Made by a program: the position numbers and the translations under genes. This document shows, piece after piece, positions 41,134-48,561 of a stretch of DNA of 64,000 nucleotides. The stretch covers positions 1,178,001-1,242,000 of the forward strand of contig NZ_LS483411.1 of the NCBI RefSeq assembly GCF_900475755.1, given 5' to 3'. How positions within the stretch are numbered: the stretch's first letter is position 1; each line of letters begins with the position of its first letter. This stretch comes from Haemophilus influenzae. GTDB lineage: Bacteria > Pseudomonadota > Gammaproteobacteria > Enterobacterales > Pasteurellaceae. The notes under the pieces are model-generated. The model did no database searches. It was given only the letters and a program-made list of their open reading frames with translations, and had not been told where the DNA came from.

Positions 41134-41210
41134 GCGACTATAGCTCAGTTGGTTAGAGCACCACCTTGACATGGTGGGGGTCACTGGTTCGAGTCCAGCT
41201 AGTCGCACCA
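41134..41210 (+). tRNA. tRNA-Val (anticodon GAC)
   Basis: A 77-nt cloverleaf with acceptor GCGACTA / TAGTCGC, D-arm AGCTCAGTTGGTTAGAGC, anticodon stem CCACC / GGTGG with loop TTGACAT (anticodon GAC), T-arm CTGGTTCGAGTCCAG region, and encoded CCA. It lies between pykA and the restriction operon. Confidence 0.96.
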
Positions 41211-41276: not shown

Positions 41277-44200
41277 TCACATGCTTAAATCCCCCGCAAT
41301 CTCTTCCGCTTGTTTAATCACATAAGTTACCGCTTCTTCCTGTTTATTGGGTGGATATTTATATTTTTGTAAGGCACGTCGAACGAGTAATCGAATTCTT
41401 GCCCGCACTGCTTCTTTGTGTTGCCAATCAATACTGACTGAGCAGCGTAAAATATCGGTAATCTCTTTAGCGAGTTTAGAAAGCACTTCATCGTTCATCA
41501 ATTCTTTGGCACTCTCGTTTTGAGAAAGGGCATCGTAAAACGCTAATTCTGCCGTGCTTAAACCGAGTTTTTCGCCCCGCGATAAGCGTTCGGAGAAATC
41601 CCGCCCCATCTGCACAAGTGCATCAAGAATTTCCACCACGCTCAAATTGTGATTGTGATATTGCGTGAGGGCTTCTTGCAAACGTTGCTCAAAATCTTTT
41701 TGTTCGGTCAGATTTCTGCTGGCTTTGGCTTTAATTTCCTGCTTTAAATAACGCTCCATCGCTAACACCCACAGGCTTTTGGTCTCGCTGTTTTTGATCG
41801 CTTGCAAAAATTCGTCGGAAAGCAAATTAATCTGCGTTTGTTCTTTGCCCAACAAATCAAATAAATCAATGGTACCTTCAGATACAATACTTTGATTGAT
41901 TAAGGCTTTAAGCTGAATTAAGCGTTCAGTTATCCCTTTTCCATTTTGTTCACGTTTGGCAAGCACAGCACGTACAGCATCATAAAAAGCCACTTCTTGA
42001 CTATATGGTTCGATTTCAGGTAATGCCCCGCATAAAGCGTAACCTTTTTTCAAGCTTCCTGCCGTTTTCAAAAAGGCTTTTTTACGTGGCTCAATATCGT
42101 CCGCATTGTGCCAATGTTGATCGTATGCTTTGCCTTCGTTTGGTAATTGATCCAGCGTAGCAATATGGTTTGCTGCTGTCGCTATAGCTTTTAGCAACAA
42201 TGCAGGTTCTTGTTCAGAAATTACCATCTGAACATCAAATGCTTCGCCTTCAATTGGTGTCGCAAACAAAGTTCGGATAAATTCAAGCTGTTCTTTCATT
42301 TTAAAGAACACGTTTTGCACATCTTCCGCTAATTGACCTTTGCCAGTAGAGTTGGTGTATTGCTGTGTGGCTGCTCGTAATTCTTCTGCTAAACCAACAT
42401 AATCCACGATAAGTCCACCGTTTTCGCGACTTTTGTTAGCGAATACACGGTTTACTCGTGCGATGGCTTGCATTAGGTTATGTCCCTTCATTGGCTTATC
42501 AAGATACATAGTGTTACAGCACGGTGCATCAAAGCCTGTCAGCCACATATCACGCACAATTACTACTTTCAGCGGATCGGTAGGATCTTTAAAACGGCGT
42601 TCTAACGTTTGCTTTTCCAGCTTACTGTAAATATGTTTTTGCATTTCAGGCGTATCGCTTGCTGAACCCGTCATCACAATTTTAATTGCCCCCTCATTGA
42701 TATTATCCGAATGCCATTCAGGGTGCAGAGCGATGATCTGATTATACAAATCCACGCAAATTTGACGGCTGGAAACAACAATCATCGCCTTGCCGTCTTG
42801 TTGCTGATTGCGTTTTGCAAAATGTTGCACAAAATCGACCGCTAAATCGTGCAATCGTGCTTCTGAGCCGAGTAATTTTTCTCGCAAGCGTAATTTCGGG
42901 TTTTCTTCGCCTTCCAGTAGCTCATCAATTTCTGCAAATAATTCATCGTGATTAGCATTCTCCGCTAGCTTGATTTGGCGAGCTTCGTAAATAATCGGCA
43001 CGGTTGCACCATCTTCCACCGCATCTTGCAAATCGTAAATAGATACATACTGACCGAAAACATCTTGTGTATCGCGATCTTCAAGGCTAATTGGCGTACC
43101 CGTAAAACCAATAAACGAAGCATTAGGCAGTGCATCACGCAAATGGCGAGCATAACCTGCTTGGAATTTGCCGTTATGTAGTTTTTGGGTAAAACCGTAT
43201 TGACTACGGTGTGCCTCATCGCTGATCACAATAATATTGCTGCGGTCATTTAAGACAGGGAAGCGGCTTTCTTCCTCATTCAAGGCGAATTTTTGAATGG
43301 TAGTAAAAAACACGCCTCCCACTTCATTTTGTGCGAGCAGTTGGCGTAGTTGTTCTCGGTCTTCTACTTGTTGCGGTGTTTGTTTGATTAACTCTTTGCC
43401 TGAAGAAAAGGTTTGGAAAAGCTGACCGTCCAAATCATTGCGATCGGTGACGACTAAAATCGTCGGGTTTTTCAATTCAGGTTGGGAGAGCAATTTGCCT
43501 GCATAAAACAGCATTGAAATGGATTTGCCCGAACCCTGCGTATGCCACATCACGCCAATGCGTTTATCGCCTTGCTCGCTTGTGGCAAAAATCGTGGATT
43601 CTACCGCTTCATTCACACCGTAATACTGATGATACGCTGCGATTTTCTTGATTAACGCTCCATTAGAACCGAGTTCAAACAGCACAAAATAACGTACATA
43701 ATCCAGCAGTTTTTGCGGTGTCATCAAGCCGTTTAACAGATTTTGCAATTCATCGCCAAAATCCAACCGCTTACTTTTTGCCTTTTCGTCCACGACTTTC
43801 CAAGGTGTAAAGCGTTGGAAATCTGCCGACAGCGAGCCCAAACGGGCGGCAATGCCGTCTGAAATAATTAGGGTTTGGTTGTAAACAAACAGCTCGGCAA
43901 TTTCATCTTTATAGGTTTCAAACTGATTAAACGCCTGCAACAAATCCGCCGATTCACGCAACGGATTTTTGAGCTCAAATACCACTAAGGGAAGACCATT
44001 TACAAAGCCGATAATATCAGGAATCCGCTTGCCCCCTTTACGGCTTCGGATTTCCAATTGATTGACGGCGACAAAACGGTTGTTTTCCCAATGCTCGAAA
44101 TCTACCAAACGCGCCATCTCAATTTTCTGTTCGCCGTTTTGCGTATATTCCACTCGTACACCATCACGCAACAGTTTATAAAACGCCTGATTACGCACCA

Positions 44201-44441
44201 CTAAGTTGCCAATATCGCTTTTTGTCGCCGATTTGACCACAGAATCCACCGCGCTTTCAGGCAGCTGCGGATTAAGTTTACGCACCGCCTCACGCAGTTG
44301 CTCAATAAAAACTACGCCGCTCAAATCGCCACGGGCAAACTCGCCTTCATGAACAAGCAAGTCTTTACCATAGCGATATTCCCAACCGAGGGATTGCAGA
44401 CGTTGAAGGGTGAGTTGTTCGATGTCGTTTTCGTTGAGCAT
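41277..44441 (-). CDS. hsdR: Type I restriction enzyme R subunit HsdR
   Basis: Motor-nuclease subunit that translocates DNA and cleaves unmodified DNA in complex with HsdM2S. About 1054 residues from the ATG preceded by GGAGAA; an upstream ATG pair inside the SIR2 gene is less likely. The PD-ELK nuclease motif is visible (D142 in RIPDIIGFV, E156 and K158 in VVFELKNP). SF2 helicase motifs follow: Walker A WHTQGSGKS at about 299-307, DEAHRSQYG near 410, FTGTPIS, and QAIARVNR. Intact, so restriction would be functional if HsdM and HsdS are made. Last gene of the four-gene operon. Confidence 0.93.
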   Translation of the reverse strand: MLNENDIEQLTLQRLQSLGWEYRYGKDLLVHEGEFARGDLSGVVFIEQLREAVRKLNPQLPESAVDSVVKSATKSDIGNLVVRNQAFYKLLRDGVRVEYTQNGEQKIEMARLVDFEHWENNRFVAVNQLEIRSRKGGKRIPDIIGFVNGLPLVVFELKNPLRESADLLQAFNQFETYKDEIAELFVYNQTLIISDGIAARLGSLSADFQRFTPWKVVDEKAKSKRLDFGDELQNLLNGLMTPQKLLDYVRYFVLFELGSNGALIKKIAAYHQYYGVNEAVESTIFATSEQGDKRIGVMWHTQGSGKSISMLFYAGKLLSQPELKNPTILVVTDRNDLDGQLFQTFSSGKELIKQTPQQVEDREQLRQLLAQNEVGGVFFTTIQKFALNEEESRFPVLNDRSNIIVISDEAHRSQYGFTQKLHNGKFQAGYARHLRDALPNASFIGFTGTPISLEDRDTQDVFGQYVSIYDLQDAVEDGATVPIIYEARQIKLAENANHDELFAEIDELLEGEENPKLRLREKLLGSEARLHDLAVDFVQHFAKRNQQQDGKAMIVVSSRQICVDLYNQIIALHPEWHSDNINEGAIKIVMTGSASDTPEMQKHIYSKLEKQTLERRFKDPTDPLKVVIVRDMWLTGFDAPCCNTMYLDKPMKGHNLMQAIARVNRVFANKSRENGGLIVDYVGLAEELRAATQQYTNSTGKGQLAEDVQNVFFKMKEQLEFIRTLFATPIEGEAFDVQMVISEQEPALLLKAIATAANHIATLDQLPNEGKAYDQHWHNADDIEPRKKAFLKTAGSLKKGYALCGALPEIEPYSQEVAFYDAVRAVLAKREQNGKGITERLIQLKALINQSIVSEGTIDLFDLLGKEQTQINLLSDEFLQAIKNSETKSLWVLAMERYLKQEIKAKASRNLTEQKDFEQRLQEALTQYHNHNLSVVEILDALVQMGRDFSERLSRGEKLGLSTAELAFYDALSQNESAKELMNDEVLSKLAKEITDILRCSVSIDWQHKEAVRARIRLLVRRALQKYKYPPNKQEEAVTYVIKQAEEIAGDLSM

Positions 44442-44442
44442 T

Positions 44443-45480
44443 TTATTGTTCTCCATCATTTAATAATTCCAGCAAGGCTTCAATGCTTTCATCATGATCG
44501 CCATCATACCAAATTGGAAAAATATTGGATTTTTGAAGTGCTTTTCTGCGAGCTGTTCGTTCTTCCTCGGATAAATTTTCACAAGATAAAAAAGCATAGT
44601 GTTTAGGTAGATTATCTTTGCCGCGTTCTTCGACAATTTCTGCCATACATTGCAATGTTCGATCTTTATCTAGACTACAACCTAAAAATAGCAAAGATTG
44701 AGAAAATAATGATTCCATTACACAGGTTTTGAGAATATTGTGTTCAGAATAATGTCTTTTATAATCATCTTGGGTGAGTACTCTTTTGTTTTTACTTATA
44801 AATGTTCCGTGTAACTTTAAAAGAATTCGATAGCCTTCTCCAAATAATTTTTTAAACTCTTCAGCATCAATACCAAATACTTCTTGATCAAAATGAATAT
44901 CTTGATTTGCATATATTTTTTTAATCAAATCATCGTAATTTGTTGTAATTATGGTTTCTTTAAAAAATTCAGGTAGCCTACATATAATTCCTTGTAGTTC
45001 TCCAAGATTTGGAGATTTACCAAATTGATTTTCTAAATGTTCTTGTAGATGACCTTCATCTACATCAAATAATAATTGTGCAGCTTCTTCGTATTCTCCT
45101 TTATGAATATGTTCTTCAAAAATAGGGAAATCTGCTCCTGATTCTTTTTGTACTTCATAAAGAAAACCTTTCCATGATGGAAATCCTGAAGGCATAGAAA
45201 GTCCAGCTCCAATAAATGGGGTTAGTTTATTTCTTCTAAAGATTTCTTTTAGCTTATGGAATCGTTGTTTATTATCTGCAATTTCTAAAATCTGATTAGC
45301 AGTGTCAATTGCTTGTTGTTTACGTTGGTTTTTCCAGTCTTGAAAGGCTAACTCATAAGTTTCAGGTTCTAGCTTAGATAAAATTTGGTCTCGAAGAAAA
45401 ACACTTCCTCTGATAACTATTTCTTCTCCTTCTGAATTTAATTCTTCAATGAAAAGGCGTTCTAAATAATTGTTATTCAT
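44443..45480 (-). CDS. SIR2-domain protein embedded in the restriction operon
   Basis: Predicted NAD+-binding/NADase defence protein of about 345 residues. An N-terminal helical segment (about 1-85) precedes a SIR2 Rossmann core with FIGAGLS (89-95), IITTNYDD (catalytic-type N181) and LKLHG (catalytic-type H224). LFLGCSLDKDR follows near 265-274. These are the residues required in ThsA- and DSR-type antiphage SIR2 enzymes (family knowledge). The ATG at 45480 follows GGGGAG and overlaps the hsdS end by 8 bases; its stop lies 1 base before the hsdR start. No counterpart is recalled in Rd at this place. A protein-deacetylase role is unlikely because the zinc-binding cysteine set is absent. Confidence 0.85.
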   Translation of the reverse strand: MNNNYLERLFIEELNSEGEEIVIRGSVFLRDQILSKLEPETYELAFQDWKNQRKQQAIDTANQILEIADNKQRFHKLKEIFRRNKLTPFIGAGLSMPSGFPSWKGFLYEVQKESGADFPIFEEHIHKGEYEEAAQLLFDVDEGHLQEHLENQFGKSPNLGELQGIICRLPEFFKETIITTNYDDLIKKIYANQDIHFDQEVFGIDAEEFKKLFGEGYRILLKLHGTFISKNKRVLTQDDYKRHYSEHNILKTCVMESLFSQSLLFLGCSLDKDRTLQCMAEIVEERGKDNLPKHYAFLSCENLSEEERTARRKALQKSNIFPIWYDGDHDESIEALLELLNDGEQ

Positions 45481-46867
45481 AATTCTCCCCATCTAATAAT
45501 CTAGGTAGCAATAGATCTCTAGAATTAGATAAGATCTCGTTCTGGTAGCTATTAAATATAGATTTATCTAGAATTTTCTTTAATAACTTTTCAAAAGCTA
45601 AATGTACATCATTATTCGCTAGCAATAGTGGATATTTTAAAATATCTCTAGTGCTAATATTGGGTTGAGCAGATCCTTGTGCAGTAAAGTCAACAAAGTT
45701 TTTGAATTCTTCTTGAATTACATTCATATATATAAAGCTATAAAATGTTTCAGATTCATTTATTCGTTTAGCCAGAAATTTAGCTACACGTTGATTCAAC
45801 ATAGCCTTTTTATTTGCTGGCATTCTTCCTACTTTTCCAACATAAGCACCTGTTAGTCCAATGACAATGTCTCCACCATTCAAAACAAAATTAGAACGTA
45901 AAGATAGGTTATCTTCTGAAACGAAACCATTTCCTTCTACTGTGAGAATTTTTGATTGTATAGAGCCAATTTTTATTACAGGAATTCCTGTATCAGTCCA
46001 TTCTGAGCTTTTGAATGCATAACCGTTTTGCATTTCACAAATTTCTGAAAGTGTTGTTTGTTTCCACCCCTTCGGCACTTCAACCCCATCAACTTCCACC
46101 ATCTCACACGGAAACGCTTTGGCGGTTTCGGCTAGTTCGGCGTAGCGTTCAGGCTGTGTTTGTGAAAGTGCGGTCAGTTCTTCGGGTGTTTTTCCGCTGA
46201 TTGCCTGCATAGCGGCAAGTTCTGCTTGTTCAAGACTCATGCCGTCTGAAAGGGCTTGGACTTTGGCACGCACGGGATCGAAATCAACAAACCAACTTTT
46301 AAACAGGGATTGGGCGATTTGTTCCAAGGTTTGATTGATTTGGGTGTTGAGTTCAATTTTTTTATCTAAATCAGATAAAATTCTAGCAATTTCTTTTTGT
46401 TCAGAAAGTGGCGGTAAGTTAAATTGATATTTCAATAAATCGCCAATTTTCATATTTAATTGAACAGATGTACCACCTGATATTCCATCAATATAACCAC
46501 TAAAATGTTTTGATTTGAAAACATAATAAATAAATTGAGGATCAACTTTTTCTATTTTTAAACGTATTCTTGCTAATCCATTATTAAAAACAGCAGGTAA
46601 TTCTTTTTTTACTAGATAACAAATACCTGTCGAGCAAGTTCTTGCCATAATAATATCATTAGGAATCAGCTGAAATTTTTTAAAGTCAGAATCTTTAACT
46701 TCAGTATATCCCCATTTGTCAAATGGCTTATTTTGAGAAATATCTTGTATTCTCAAACAGCGTAAATTTGTTTCATGTTCAACAATCGGTGCTCTACGAA
46801 TAGCATCTAATCCTGTATTAATACTTTCCGTTATATCTTCTAATGTTACTGTTTGCCAATCACTCAT
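45473..46867 (-). CDS. hsdS: Type I restriction specificity subunit HsdS
   Basis: DNA-recognition subunit of 464 residues with two target recognition domains. TRD1 is about 1-150; the central conserved helix is PLSEQKEIARILSDLDKKIELNTQINQTLEQIAQSLFKSWFVDFDPVRAK, about 152-202. TRD2 is about 265-415 and is followed by a short distal helix. The interdomain segment LSLEQAELAAMQAISGKTPEELTALSQTQPERYAELAE is typical of this subgroup. The gene is intact. Its start overlaps the hsdM stop by 8 bases, preceded by GGAGG. TRD2 and the C-terminus are more AT-rich than the centre, suggesting domain exchange. Confidence 0.92.
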   Translation of the reverse strand: MSDWQTVTLEDITESINTGLDAIRRAPIVEHETNLRCLRIQDISQNKPFDKWGYTEVKDSDFKKFQLIPNDIIMARTCSTGICYLVKKELPAVFNNGLARIRLKIEKVDPQFIYYVFKSKHFSGYIDGISGGTSVQLNMKIGDLLKYQFNLPPLSEQKEIARILSDLDKKIELNTQINQTLEQIAQSLFKSWFVDFDPVRAKVQALSDGMSLEQAELAAMQAISGKTPEELTALSQTQPERYAELAETAKAFPCEMVEVDGVEVPKGWKQTTLSEICEMQNGYAFKSSEWTDTGIPVIKIGSIQSKILTVEGNGFVSEDNLSLRSNFVLNGGDIVIGLTGAYVGKVGRMPANKKAMLNQRVAKFLAKRINESETFYSFIYMNVIQEEFKNFVDFTAQGSAQPNISTRDILKYPLLLANNDVHLAFEKLLKKILDKSIFNSYQNEILSNSRDLLLPRLLDGENYE

Positions 46868-48561
46868 ACCCCAATCCTCCTAAATTCTTCTTAATTTCCG
46901 CTTCTAATTCCGCACTTTTCGCAAATTGCTCCTTCAAAAGAGCGGTCAGATTTTGCATTTTTTCTGCAAATGGTACGCCGTCGTCTTCTTGTTCTGCGGT
47001 GCCGACGTAGCGTCCCGGTGTGAGGACGAAGTCGTTGTCTTTAATTTCTTCTAACGTAGTGGATTTGCAGAAAGCGGCTTGGTCTTCATAGCCGTCTGAT
47101 TTTTGCCAAGCGTGGAGGGTATTGGCGATTTTGGCGATGTCGTCAGCGGTAAAATCGCGCAATACGCGGTCTTTCATATAGCCGATTTGGCGGGCATCGA
47201 TAAACAATACTTCGCCTTTACGCTTTTTGTTGCGGTTTAGAAACCAAATGCAGGCGGGGATTTGGGTGTTGGTGAAGAGCTGACCAGGCAGGGCAACCAT
47301 ACATTCCACTAAGTCGGCATTGATGATGGCTTTGCGGATTTCGCCTTCGTTGTTGGTTTGGCTGCTCATGGAGCCGTTGGCAAGCAATAATGCCATTTTG
47401 CCGTTGGGCGAGAGGTGGTAAATCATGTGTTGCAGCCAAGCGAAGTTGGCATTGCCTTTGGGTGGCGTGCCGTATGCCCAACGTGGGTCGTCGGCAAGGG
47501 ATTCGCTCCACCAATCGCTGATATTGAATGGCGGGTTTGCCATAATGAAATCCATCTTTTTGTCGATATGTTGCGGCTGCGTAAAGCTGTCGGCGTTGTG
47601 TTTGCCGAAGTCGTAATCAATGCCGCGAATCGCCATATTCATCGCCGCAAGTTTCCATGTGGTGGGGTTGAATTCTTGCCCGTAGATGGAAACGTTATTG
47701 ATGTTGCCTTGATGGGCGGAGATAAAGCGTTCGGTTTGCACGAAAAAGCCGCCGCTGCCCATGGCTGGATCATACACTCGGCCGGAGTATGGTTCGAGCA
47801 TTTCGACAATCAGGGAAACAATGGATTTCGGCGTGAAATATTGGCCGCCGCGCTTGCCTTCGGCTTGGGCAAAGCGACCAAGGAAGTATTCGTAAACGTG
47901 GCCAAGAATGTCTTTTGCACCTAAATGCACGGGCTCGCCGTTGTAAGTCGGACGGGTAAAATTAGTATCGGAGAAGAGGATAATCAGCCCGCGCAGGGTG
48001 TCTTCGTTTACCGCATAGCCACTGATGCGTTGGAGTACGCCTTTGAGTTTTTCGTTATCTTTTTCAATAGCATCAAAGGCATCATCAATGAGCTTTGCCA
48101 CACCAGAAAACTTCCCACGCTCCTTTCCTATATTCCAAGGCAATTCTGCCCCAGTATTGAGAATAGAAACTTCTTGTAAGGCTTGCCAACGTGCAGAAGC
48201 TGGCACCCAAAATACGTTATCCGCGGTGTAATAATCACGGTTTTCTAGTTCAGCGGTTAAGGCTTCTTGATATTCTTCTTCAGTATCAAAAAAAGTGCGG
48301 TCAAGATAGAGTGGGTTTTCAGGTGTGGAGAGTTCCGCCTGAATTTTTTCCTGTTGATGGGTGAAATTATCAGAAATGTATTTTAAAAAGATAAGACCAA
48401 GAACGATATGTTTATAATTGGCGGCATCAAGTTGTTGACGGAGTTTATCCGCAGATGACCAAAGTTTTTCGTCTAATTCATTTAAAAATGCTTGTTGTAA
48501 TGCATGATTTTCATCGACAATCTTGGTCGTCTCGTCTCGTCTCGTCTCGTCTCGCTTGCAT
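46860..48561 (-). CDS. hsdM: Type I methyltransferase HsdM, phase-variable and OFF as sequenced
   Basis: N6-adenine methyltransferase subunit. The coding body contains the SAM motif DPAMGSGGFF and catalytic MANPPFNISDW. The only well-placed start, an ATG at 48561 with AGAGGG eight bases upstream, enters a (CTCGT)4 tract in a frame that stops after 16 codons. The HsdM frame upstream of 48206 is otherwise open and encodes a normal N-terminus (NYKHIVLGLIFLKYISDNF). One extra 5-bp unit would join the ATG to it and give 568 residues. An internal GTG at 48206 could yield only a truncated protein lacking the N-terminal helical domain. First gene of the operon. Confidence 0.88.
48531..48554. repeat. 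Pentanucleotide phase-variation tract in hsdM
   Basis: Four perfect CTCGT units (48531-48550) and a partial CTCG unit; a degenerate unit (GTCGT) adjoins at 48526-48530. On the coding strand these read as GACGA/ACGAG repeats and encode DETRR in the ON frame. Copy numbers congruent to five (mod 3) put the start in frame. Confidence 0.9.

Follow-up and report, generated by a model that had tools for sequence, protein, structure and literature searches.

A type I restriction-modification (R-M) operon of Haemophilus influenzae carries a gene for a 345-residue SIR2 protein between hsdS and hsdR. It lies within a 64,000-nucleotide stretch of contig NZ_LS483411.1 (positions 1,178,001 to 1,242,000), here called the window. 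The operon is on the minus strand in the order hsdM-hsdS-SIR2-hsdR, as read from the open reading frames (ORFs) and the Pfam domains of the neighbouring genes. The coordinates of the SIR2 gene given in the initial annotation are correct, as are the gene order and the overlapping or abutting junctions. There is an 8-base overlap at the hsdM/hsdS junction and another at the hsdS/SIR2 junction, and 1 base separates the SIR2 stop codon from the likely ATG of hsdR (44441). The longest mechanical ORFs begin upstream of these starts, at 45492 for SIR2, where ATG 45480 was taken as the start, and at 44459 for hsdR. The SIR2 gene is preceded by its own ribosome-binding site, GGGGAG.

44443..45480, minus strand: SIR2 gene, 345 aa, ATG at 45480 and stop codon ending at 44443 (sequence, Pfam, PADLOC and structural model)
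45473..46867, minus strand: hsdS, 464 aa, with two Methylase_S stretches (ORF and Pfam)
46860..48526, minus strand: hsdM frame 3' of the repeat tract, with N6_Mtase (ORF and Pfam)
41277..44441, minus strand: hsdR with HSDR_N, SWI2_SNF2 and T1RH-like_C, likely ATG at 44441 (Pfam)
48527..48551, minus strand: (GACGA)5 tract just 3' of the hsdM start (sequence)
41134..41210, plus strand: tRNA-Val, flanking the system on the outside, downstream of hsdR

By its Pfam domains the type I set is complete (HsdM, HsdS and HsdR), and the start of hsdM is out of frame here. The GC content is 49% in hsdM, 34% in hsdS, 31% in SIR2 and 43% in hsdR, against 38% for the window. The same hsd locus is found in Haemophilus aegyptius (locus L002); the gene flanking it in both is presumably rbfA. 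Promoter-like sites occur at chance number, and a terminator was looked for on the minus strand and not found.

The SIR2 protein and the placement of its family

The sole Pfam domain found in the protein is SIR2_2 (E 5.6e-27, over the cut-off). A family-specific N-terminal extension (residues 1 to ~66) is followed by a SIR2 core (~67-345) of the type that consumes nicotinamide adenine dinucleotide (NAD+), an NADase. Eleven residues, G91, G93, S95, T180, N181, D183, H224, G225, G267, S269 and D273, are identical in all 17 aligned full-length family members. The core motifs are therefore intact, as first reported, and include the catalytic Asn and His of the defence SIR2 NADases (N181 and H224). 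The zinc-binding cysteine pairs of the deacetylases (CxxC) are absent from all 17, again in agreement with the first reading. The AlphaFold2 model (predicted local distance difference test, pLDDT, 86.4; predicted template modelling score, pTM, 0.85) is nearest to the NADases ThsA, KomC and DSR2 by Foldseek and VIA-align. The matches listed are either bacterial defence SIR2 proteins (ThsA, DSR2, KomC, Avs5, SPARSA and SIR2-HerA) or FAM118B. A search with defence hidden Markov models (HMMs) and the structure comparison both support the assignment, made from sequence, to the antiphage-type SIR2 effectors, and the model puts this putative NADase in one structural group with ThsA, KomC and DSR. A separate sensor domain could not be recognised. 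The gene is under purifying selection, with a ratio of nonsynonymous to synonymous substitution rates (dN/dS) of 0.18 between the H. aegyptius locus and L029.

The protein does not fall into a described system. ThsA of Thoeris shares the SIR2 core and is the best match in PADLOC and in structure, but ThsA has a C-terminal SLOG domain (SIR2 plus SLOG, ~480 aa), whereas the present protein of 345 aa lacks SLOG and has an N-terminal extension outside the ThsA alignment. The HMM match covers 12-236 of 478 positions, the structural match ends at ThsA residue 282, and ThsA was rejected. No gene for a ThsB TIR protein is present among the adjoining genes, hsdS and hsdR, to which that scan was confined. 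Also rejected were DSR1 and DSR2 (~1200 aa with a C-terminal phage sensor), with 19.2 bits to Dsr1 and 29.7 to Dsr2 against an NCBIfam cut-off of 1400, and PADLOC PDC-S25, whose 517- and 528-aa models match only residues 176-293 and 176-272 with 44 and 40 bits. The alignment to KomC of the Kongming system starts only at residue ~67-74, and where KomC has KomB as its partner the present protein adjoins the Hsd genes. PrrC, an ABC NTPase with a HEPN anticodon nuclease, is ruled out by sequence, SIR2_2 alone having been found.

Family members were defined as matches that reach the N-terminal extension, or that clearly belong by score where they are decayed or cut by a contig end. They came from GTDB contigs (L002 and L003), relatives, plasmids, class and phylum samples, a further class, and IMG/VR by alignment. 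In the plasmid search 3 of 91 records are members, the sole ones covering 80% of the query. Each of the 20 members that could be placed is at hsd genes; two type I gene orders occur. The hsdM-hsdS-SIR2-hsdR kind has 12 full-length representatives (the window, L002, L029, L028, L003, L025, L127, L026, L027, L075, L124, where hsdM was not found, and L125). The order hsdR-hsdM-hsdS-SIR2 has five (L031, L074, L076, L126 and L128), some with hsdS and hsdR assigned from weak similarity and size; the HsdR of L031 carries an EcoEI_R_C domain. Two members are cut by contig ends: L077 after hsdS, and L192, which has its extension off the contig and precedes an ORF that is HsdR-like by eye. The twentieth, L032, is a remnant of 88 residues. 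Close pairs (L025/L127, L126/L128 and L002/L029) reduce the 20 to ~17 separate lineages. A 35-residue match just past hsdR in genome G075 is a possible further remnant, outside the count of 20. The placement is kept from Haemophilus to an Acidobacteriota contig (L003), in which hsdR breaks off beyond the initial part and continues into a stretch that by eye resembles the end of hsdS.

For comparison, hsd genes are near 2 (L080 and L081) of 20 weaker SIR2 matches that lack the extension (L034-L037 and L078-L093), a control in which some matches are near contig ends and very different type I families would escape the references. It is drawn from a larger number of weak matches, the relatives, plasmid, class and phylum searches having given others outside it. 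The placement of the SIR2 family at hsd genes is more than chance. The initial annotation had named random occurrence of homologs relative to hsd genes as evidence that would speak against it; they are not random.

Several other features were seen at these loci. In L003 an ORF that is RhuM-like by eye follows the broken hsdR and the hsdS-end-like stretch (L003:9009-10456). ThsA-like SIR2 and TIR-like ORFs (TIR by eye) stand in two other type I operons, between hsdS and hsdR in L081:5460-8058 and downstream of hsdR in L080:8127-10083. Five IMG/VR contigs (L124-L128) have a family SIR2 with hsd genes, and in L125, L126 and L128 ORFs that are recombinase- or integrase-like by eye are near it, which may mean that mobile elements carry the operon.

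The hsdS-hsdR junction as a cargo slot in the Pasteurellaceae

An HsdR of the window kind is present in 70 of 140 Pasteurellaceae genomes, and the stretch upstream of hsdR was surveyed for 60 of these (L129-L188). The count leaves out six genomes, G000, G004, G008, G084, G074 and G075, and four more, G048, G914, G916 and G921, which are partial or begin at a contig end. The hsdR start is found in 59 of the 60 stretches and hsdS also in 54. In all 54 of these loci at least 790 bases separate hsdS from hsdR (median 1491.5, maximum 4161), while the distance between hsdM and hsdS has a median of -8 and is over 300 in 2 of 49. A forward ORF of at least 100 aa occupies the slot in 52 of the 54 loci.

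The 109 slot ORFs form 52 clusters. A domain scan of 76 of them, which left out transposase-like, most reverse and some short ORFs, identified FRG in 11, Fic in 6, a ThsB-type TIR in 3 and AbiU2 in 3, with KwaB, Abi_2, HerA-like and SIR2_2 domains in one ORF each. Six of 20 slot ORFs scanned singly had no Pfam match at E 0.01. The slot of L167 has a SIR2 gene and a HerA gene, and that of L168 an OLD-like gene and a UvrD gene, a pair presumably resembling Gabija. Two FRG cargos (L182:291-1550 and L180:3805-5034) end in the HsdR C-terminal domain (T1RH-like_C; hhalign probability 95.6), which points to HsdR-like docking of some cargos on the methylase.

The window was also compared in 200-base blocks with two Haemophilus relatives. 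hsdM is 91-100% identical in most blocks and the recognition domains of hsdS are ~46-57% identical. SIR2 is 56-68% identical until its last codons, and hsdR 82-94% over most of its 5' half, with one block at 70%, and 64-77% in its 3' third. In a close Haemophilus (L139) the same place has another cargo, of 218 aa, between flanks that are 92-94% identical to the window. The hsdS-hsdR slot is a general cassette site with cargo exchange.

A transposase-like ORF of 96-184 aa, by eye of the REP-associated (repetitive extragenic palindrome) kind, is present in the slot of 13 loci (L132, L133, L141, L143, L147, L150-L152, L154, L156, L161, L173 and L175), in reverse orientation in 12, and another (L032:6596-7090) adjoins the broken SIR2 gene of L032. 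It is possible that this ORF is the agent of the exchange.

Phase variation and proposed coupling to the Hsd complex

In the window (GACGA)5 comes just after the hsdM ATG at 48561, and translation from that ATG would end at codon 17. The frame that encodes HsdM has no ATG, GTG or TTG before an internal GTG at 48206. HsdM is phase-OFF in this assembly. The ATG is likewise out of frame in L002, where the hsdM ORF begins at an internal GTG (a second scan did not recover its frame), and it is in frame in L029. Of the three Haemophilus loci with SIR2, two, the window and, as far as the first scan shows, L002, thus have hsdM OFF and SIR2 open. Among other loci at this chromosomal place, L144 lacks any in-frame start ahead of the tract, and in L139 and L145 the ATG is out of frame but an upstream TTG is in frame. 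An earlier survey describes the GACGA tract in hsdM HI1287 as phase-varying, with a measured change from four to three units and then lysis with phage HP1c1 (PMC2651432).

It is probable that SIR2 and type I restriction work together as a two-step defence. In the reading preferred here, which has about an even chance of being right, the protein would be an NADase that depends on a partner, responds to the condition of the Hsd complex and serves as a second line of the type I operon. Without a recognisable sensor domain of its own it is probably triggered by a partner, and HsdM, HsdS and HsdR are the sole partners conserved with it. Short SIR2 effectors are known to act with a partner, KomC with KomB, and SIR2 with HerA or Argonaute. 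Docking would probably be through the N-terminal extension. The trigger would be an Hsd complex engaged, blocked or overloaded by phage, upon which the SIR2 core would be switched on, NAD+ consumed and the infected cell halted before phage release. The finding of an open SIR2 gene beside an OFF hsdM is the reason for preferring activation by way of the Hsd complex to simple release. Either the complex would be needed to activate SIR2, or SIR2 would be silenced along with hsdM; that HsdM merely restrains an otherwise active toxin is less favoured.

Several points weigh against this coupling. The N-terminal extension does not resemble the C-terminal domain of HsdR (hhalign probability 0.1), leaving docking without support from sequence. 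Other slot cargos resemble stand-alone systems, and co-location may be hitchhiking. The SIR2 gene is a remnant of 88 residues in L032, where hsdS and hsdR are open, and in L026 a 266-aa ORF intervenes between hsdS and SIR2, so that the member does not adjoin hsdS; in L125 a 319-aa ORF, Abi_2-like by eye, intervenes between SIR2 and hsdR. TgvAB, which is encoded within a type I cluster, confers protection that does not need HsdR restriction, and alone it still protects, 10-100-fold less against several phages (PMC11411939). Attachment to the slot is not significantly stronger for SIR2 than for FRG (5/5 against 4/7, p 0.16).

A stricter form of the coupling, possible but less likely than not, would make the SIR2 family a dedicated fourth type I subunit. 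Its extension would dock on the Hsd complex, and the complex, once engaged or blocked, would trigger NAD+ depletion; the restriction enzyme would thereby become an abortive-infection sensor, switchable by phase variation of hsdM.

The alternative that survives best, a serious possibility though not a probable one, is an independent abortive-infection module in a permissive slot. SIR2 would sense a phage product through its N-terminal extension and deplete NAD+ without contact with Hsd proteins, and the operon would supply promoter and mobility only. The many unrelated cargos of the slot (a forward ORF in 52/54 loci), Gabija-like, KwaB, SIR2-HerA and TIR genes among them, are consistent with this, as are the divergence of SIR2 between a more alike hsdM and hsdR 5' half, the different cargo of L139 between like flanks, the ribosome-binding site of its own, and the independent activity of TgvAB. 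Against it, the family was never seen away from hsd genes (20/20 placed), and members also occur in hsdR-hsdM-hsdS-SIR2 operons, where no slot between hsdS and hsdR exists. Within the 140 genomes all 5 places of the family are in the slot, with three weaker SIR2 matches elsewhere. The Fic cargo is in the slot at 3 of 13 places (SIR2 against Fic, p 0.0065; 0.015 without the remnant), and the FRG cargo for 4 of 7 genes, or 5 of 8 places. Places were compared with the positions of the window-kind HsdR, those near other kinds of hsd operon counting as outside. The Fic and FRG counts refer to this one HsdR kind and ignore shared ancestry, a further caution for the coupled reading, and the Fic query at E 1e-30 recovers 3 of the 6 Fic genes of the slot survey.

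A guard of the PrrC type had been proposed initially. Here a self-sufficient SIR2 would be kept inactive by the intact Hsd complex and released by phage antirestriction proteins. Its operon logic is that of PrrC, and a 2012 study reports toxin-like domains, Sir2 among them, in many type I and III R-M systems, connects Sir2 enzymes with the type I systems, and suggests that immunity components may inhibit the toxins (PMC3506569). The initial annotation placed both PrrC and RloC in this position. PrrC orthologues are described as invariably linked to type Ic R-M, including in H. influenzae strains, whereas for RloC a type I linkage is said to be rare (PMC2610378). The initial interpretation is supported in part: the effector type and the hsd linkage bear it out, and the slot cargos, the OFF hsdM and the 2012 precedent weaken it. 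Position alone does not make a guard, because the same slot has counterparts of Gabija, Kiwa and SIR2-HerA, which are self-contained systems. With hsdM out of frame, simple masking is disfavoured. If SIR2 were active unless bound by HsdM, cells of the two OFF loci would be poisoned unless polarity silenced SIR2, so release from HsdM inhibition would need co-silencing. Such a mask is improbable.

That the protein is not an NADase but a deacylase or ADP-ribosyl enzyme modifying Hsd subunits or DNA is very improbable: the SIR2 fold has several chemistries, and ADP-ribosylating or nuclease roles were considered in the accessible text of PMC3506569, but the matches listed are defence SIR2 proteins or FAM118B and the CxxC motif is absent.

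Other effectors are known from hsd operons. PrrC of EcoprrI, an anticodon nuclease in a type Ic operon, is also encoded inside the operon and acts as a second line when restriction is blocked, as would, by analogy, SIR2. PrrC differs in its ABC-HEPN nuclease with an NTPase domain, where the present protein has a SIR2 fold and no NTPase domain, and the phase-variable hsdM is a further difference. DarTG2 of the RptR island is a different effector between hsdS and hsdR, a site called a potential recombination hotspot (PMC12255303). TgvAB, again a different effector, is inside an hsd cluster, and RloF is cited with it at a like position (PMC11411939). HEPN clades in R-M loci have been listed (PMC3710099), and PrrC and PARIS have been reviewed as guardians (PMC12707154). 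The Sir2 enzymes of the 2012 study share the type I association and the guard hypothesis, but its accessible text gives no family, gene position or N-terminal extension (PMC3506569). Both the tie between Sir2 and type I R-M and the guard logic are already in that paper, which lowers the novelty. In the available text of the papers among the matches listed, which exclude preprints and most subscription papers, none describes the present family or a Haemophilus SIR2 gene placed between hsdS and hsdR. The general idea is published; the enzyme family and its strict attachment to hsd genes may be new.

If the coupled reading is right, the locus would be a compact setting for testing the 2012 proposal that suicide effectors are carried by immune enzymes and kept under their control. 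Its likely NADase has 345 residues and no recognisable sensor, and the Hsd proteins are its sole conserved partners. The out-of-frame hsdM sharpens the question of how a cell survives with the effector but without the methylase. Were the fourth-subunit form true, it would be one case of the hsdS-hsdR junction as a standing socket for interchangeable effectors, some docking like HsdR. The Pasteurellaceae cargo slot would also supply a list of candidate effectors from a single site.
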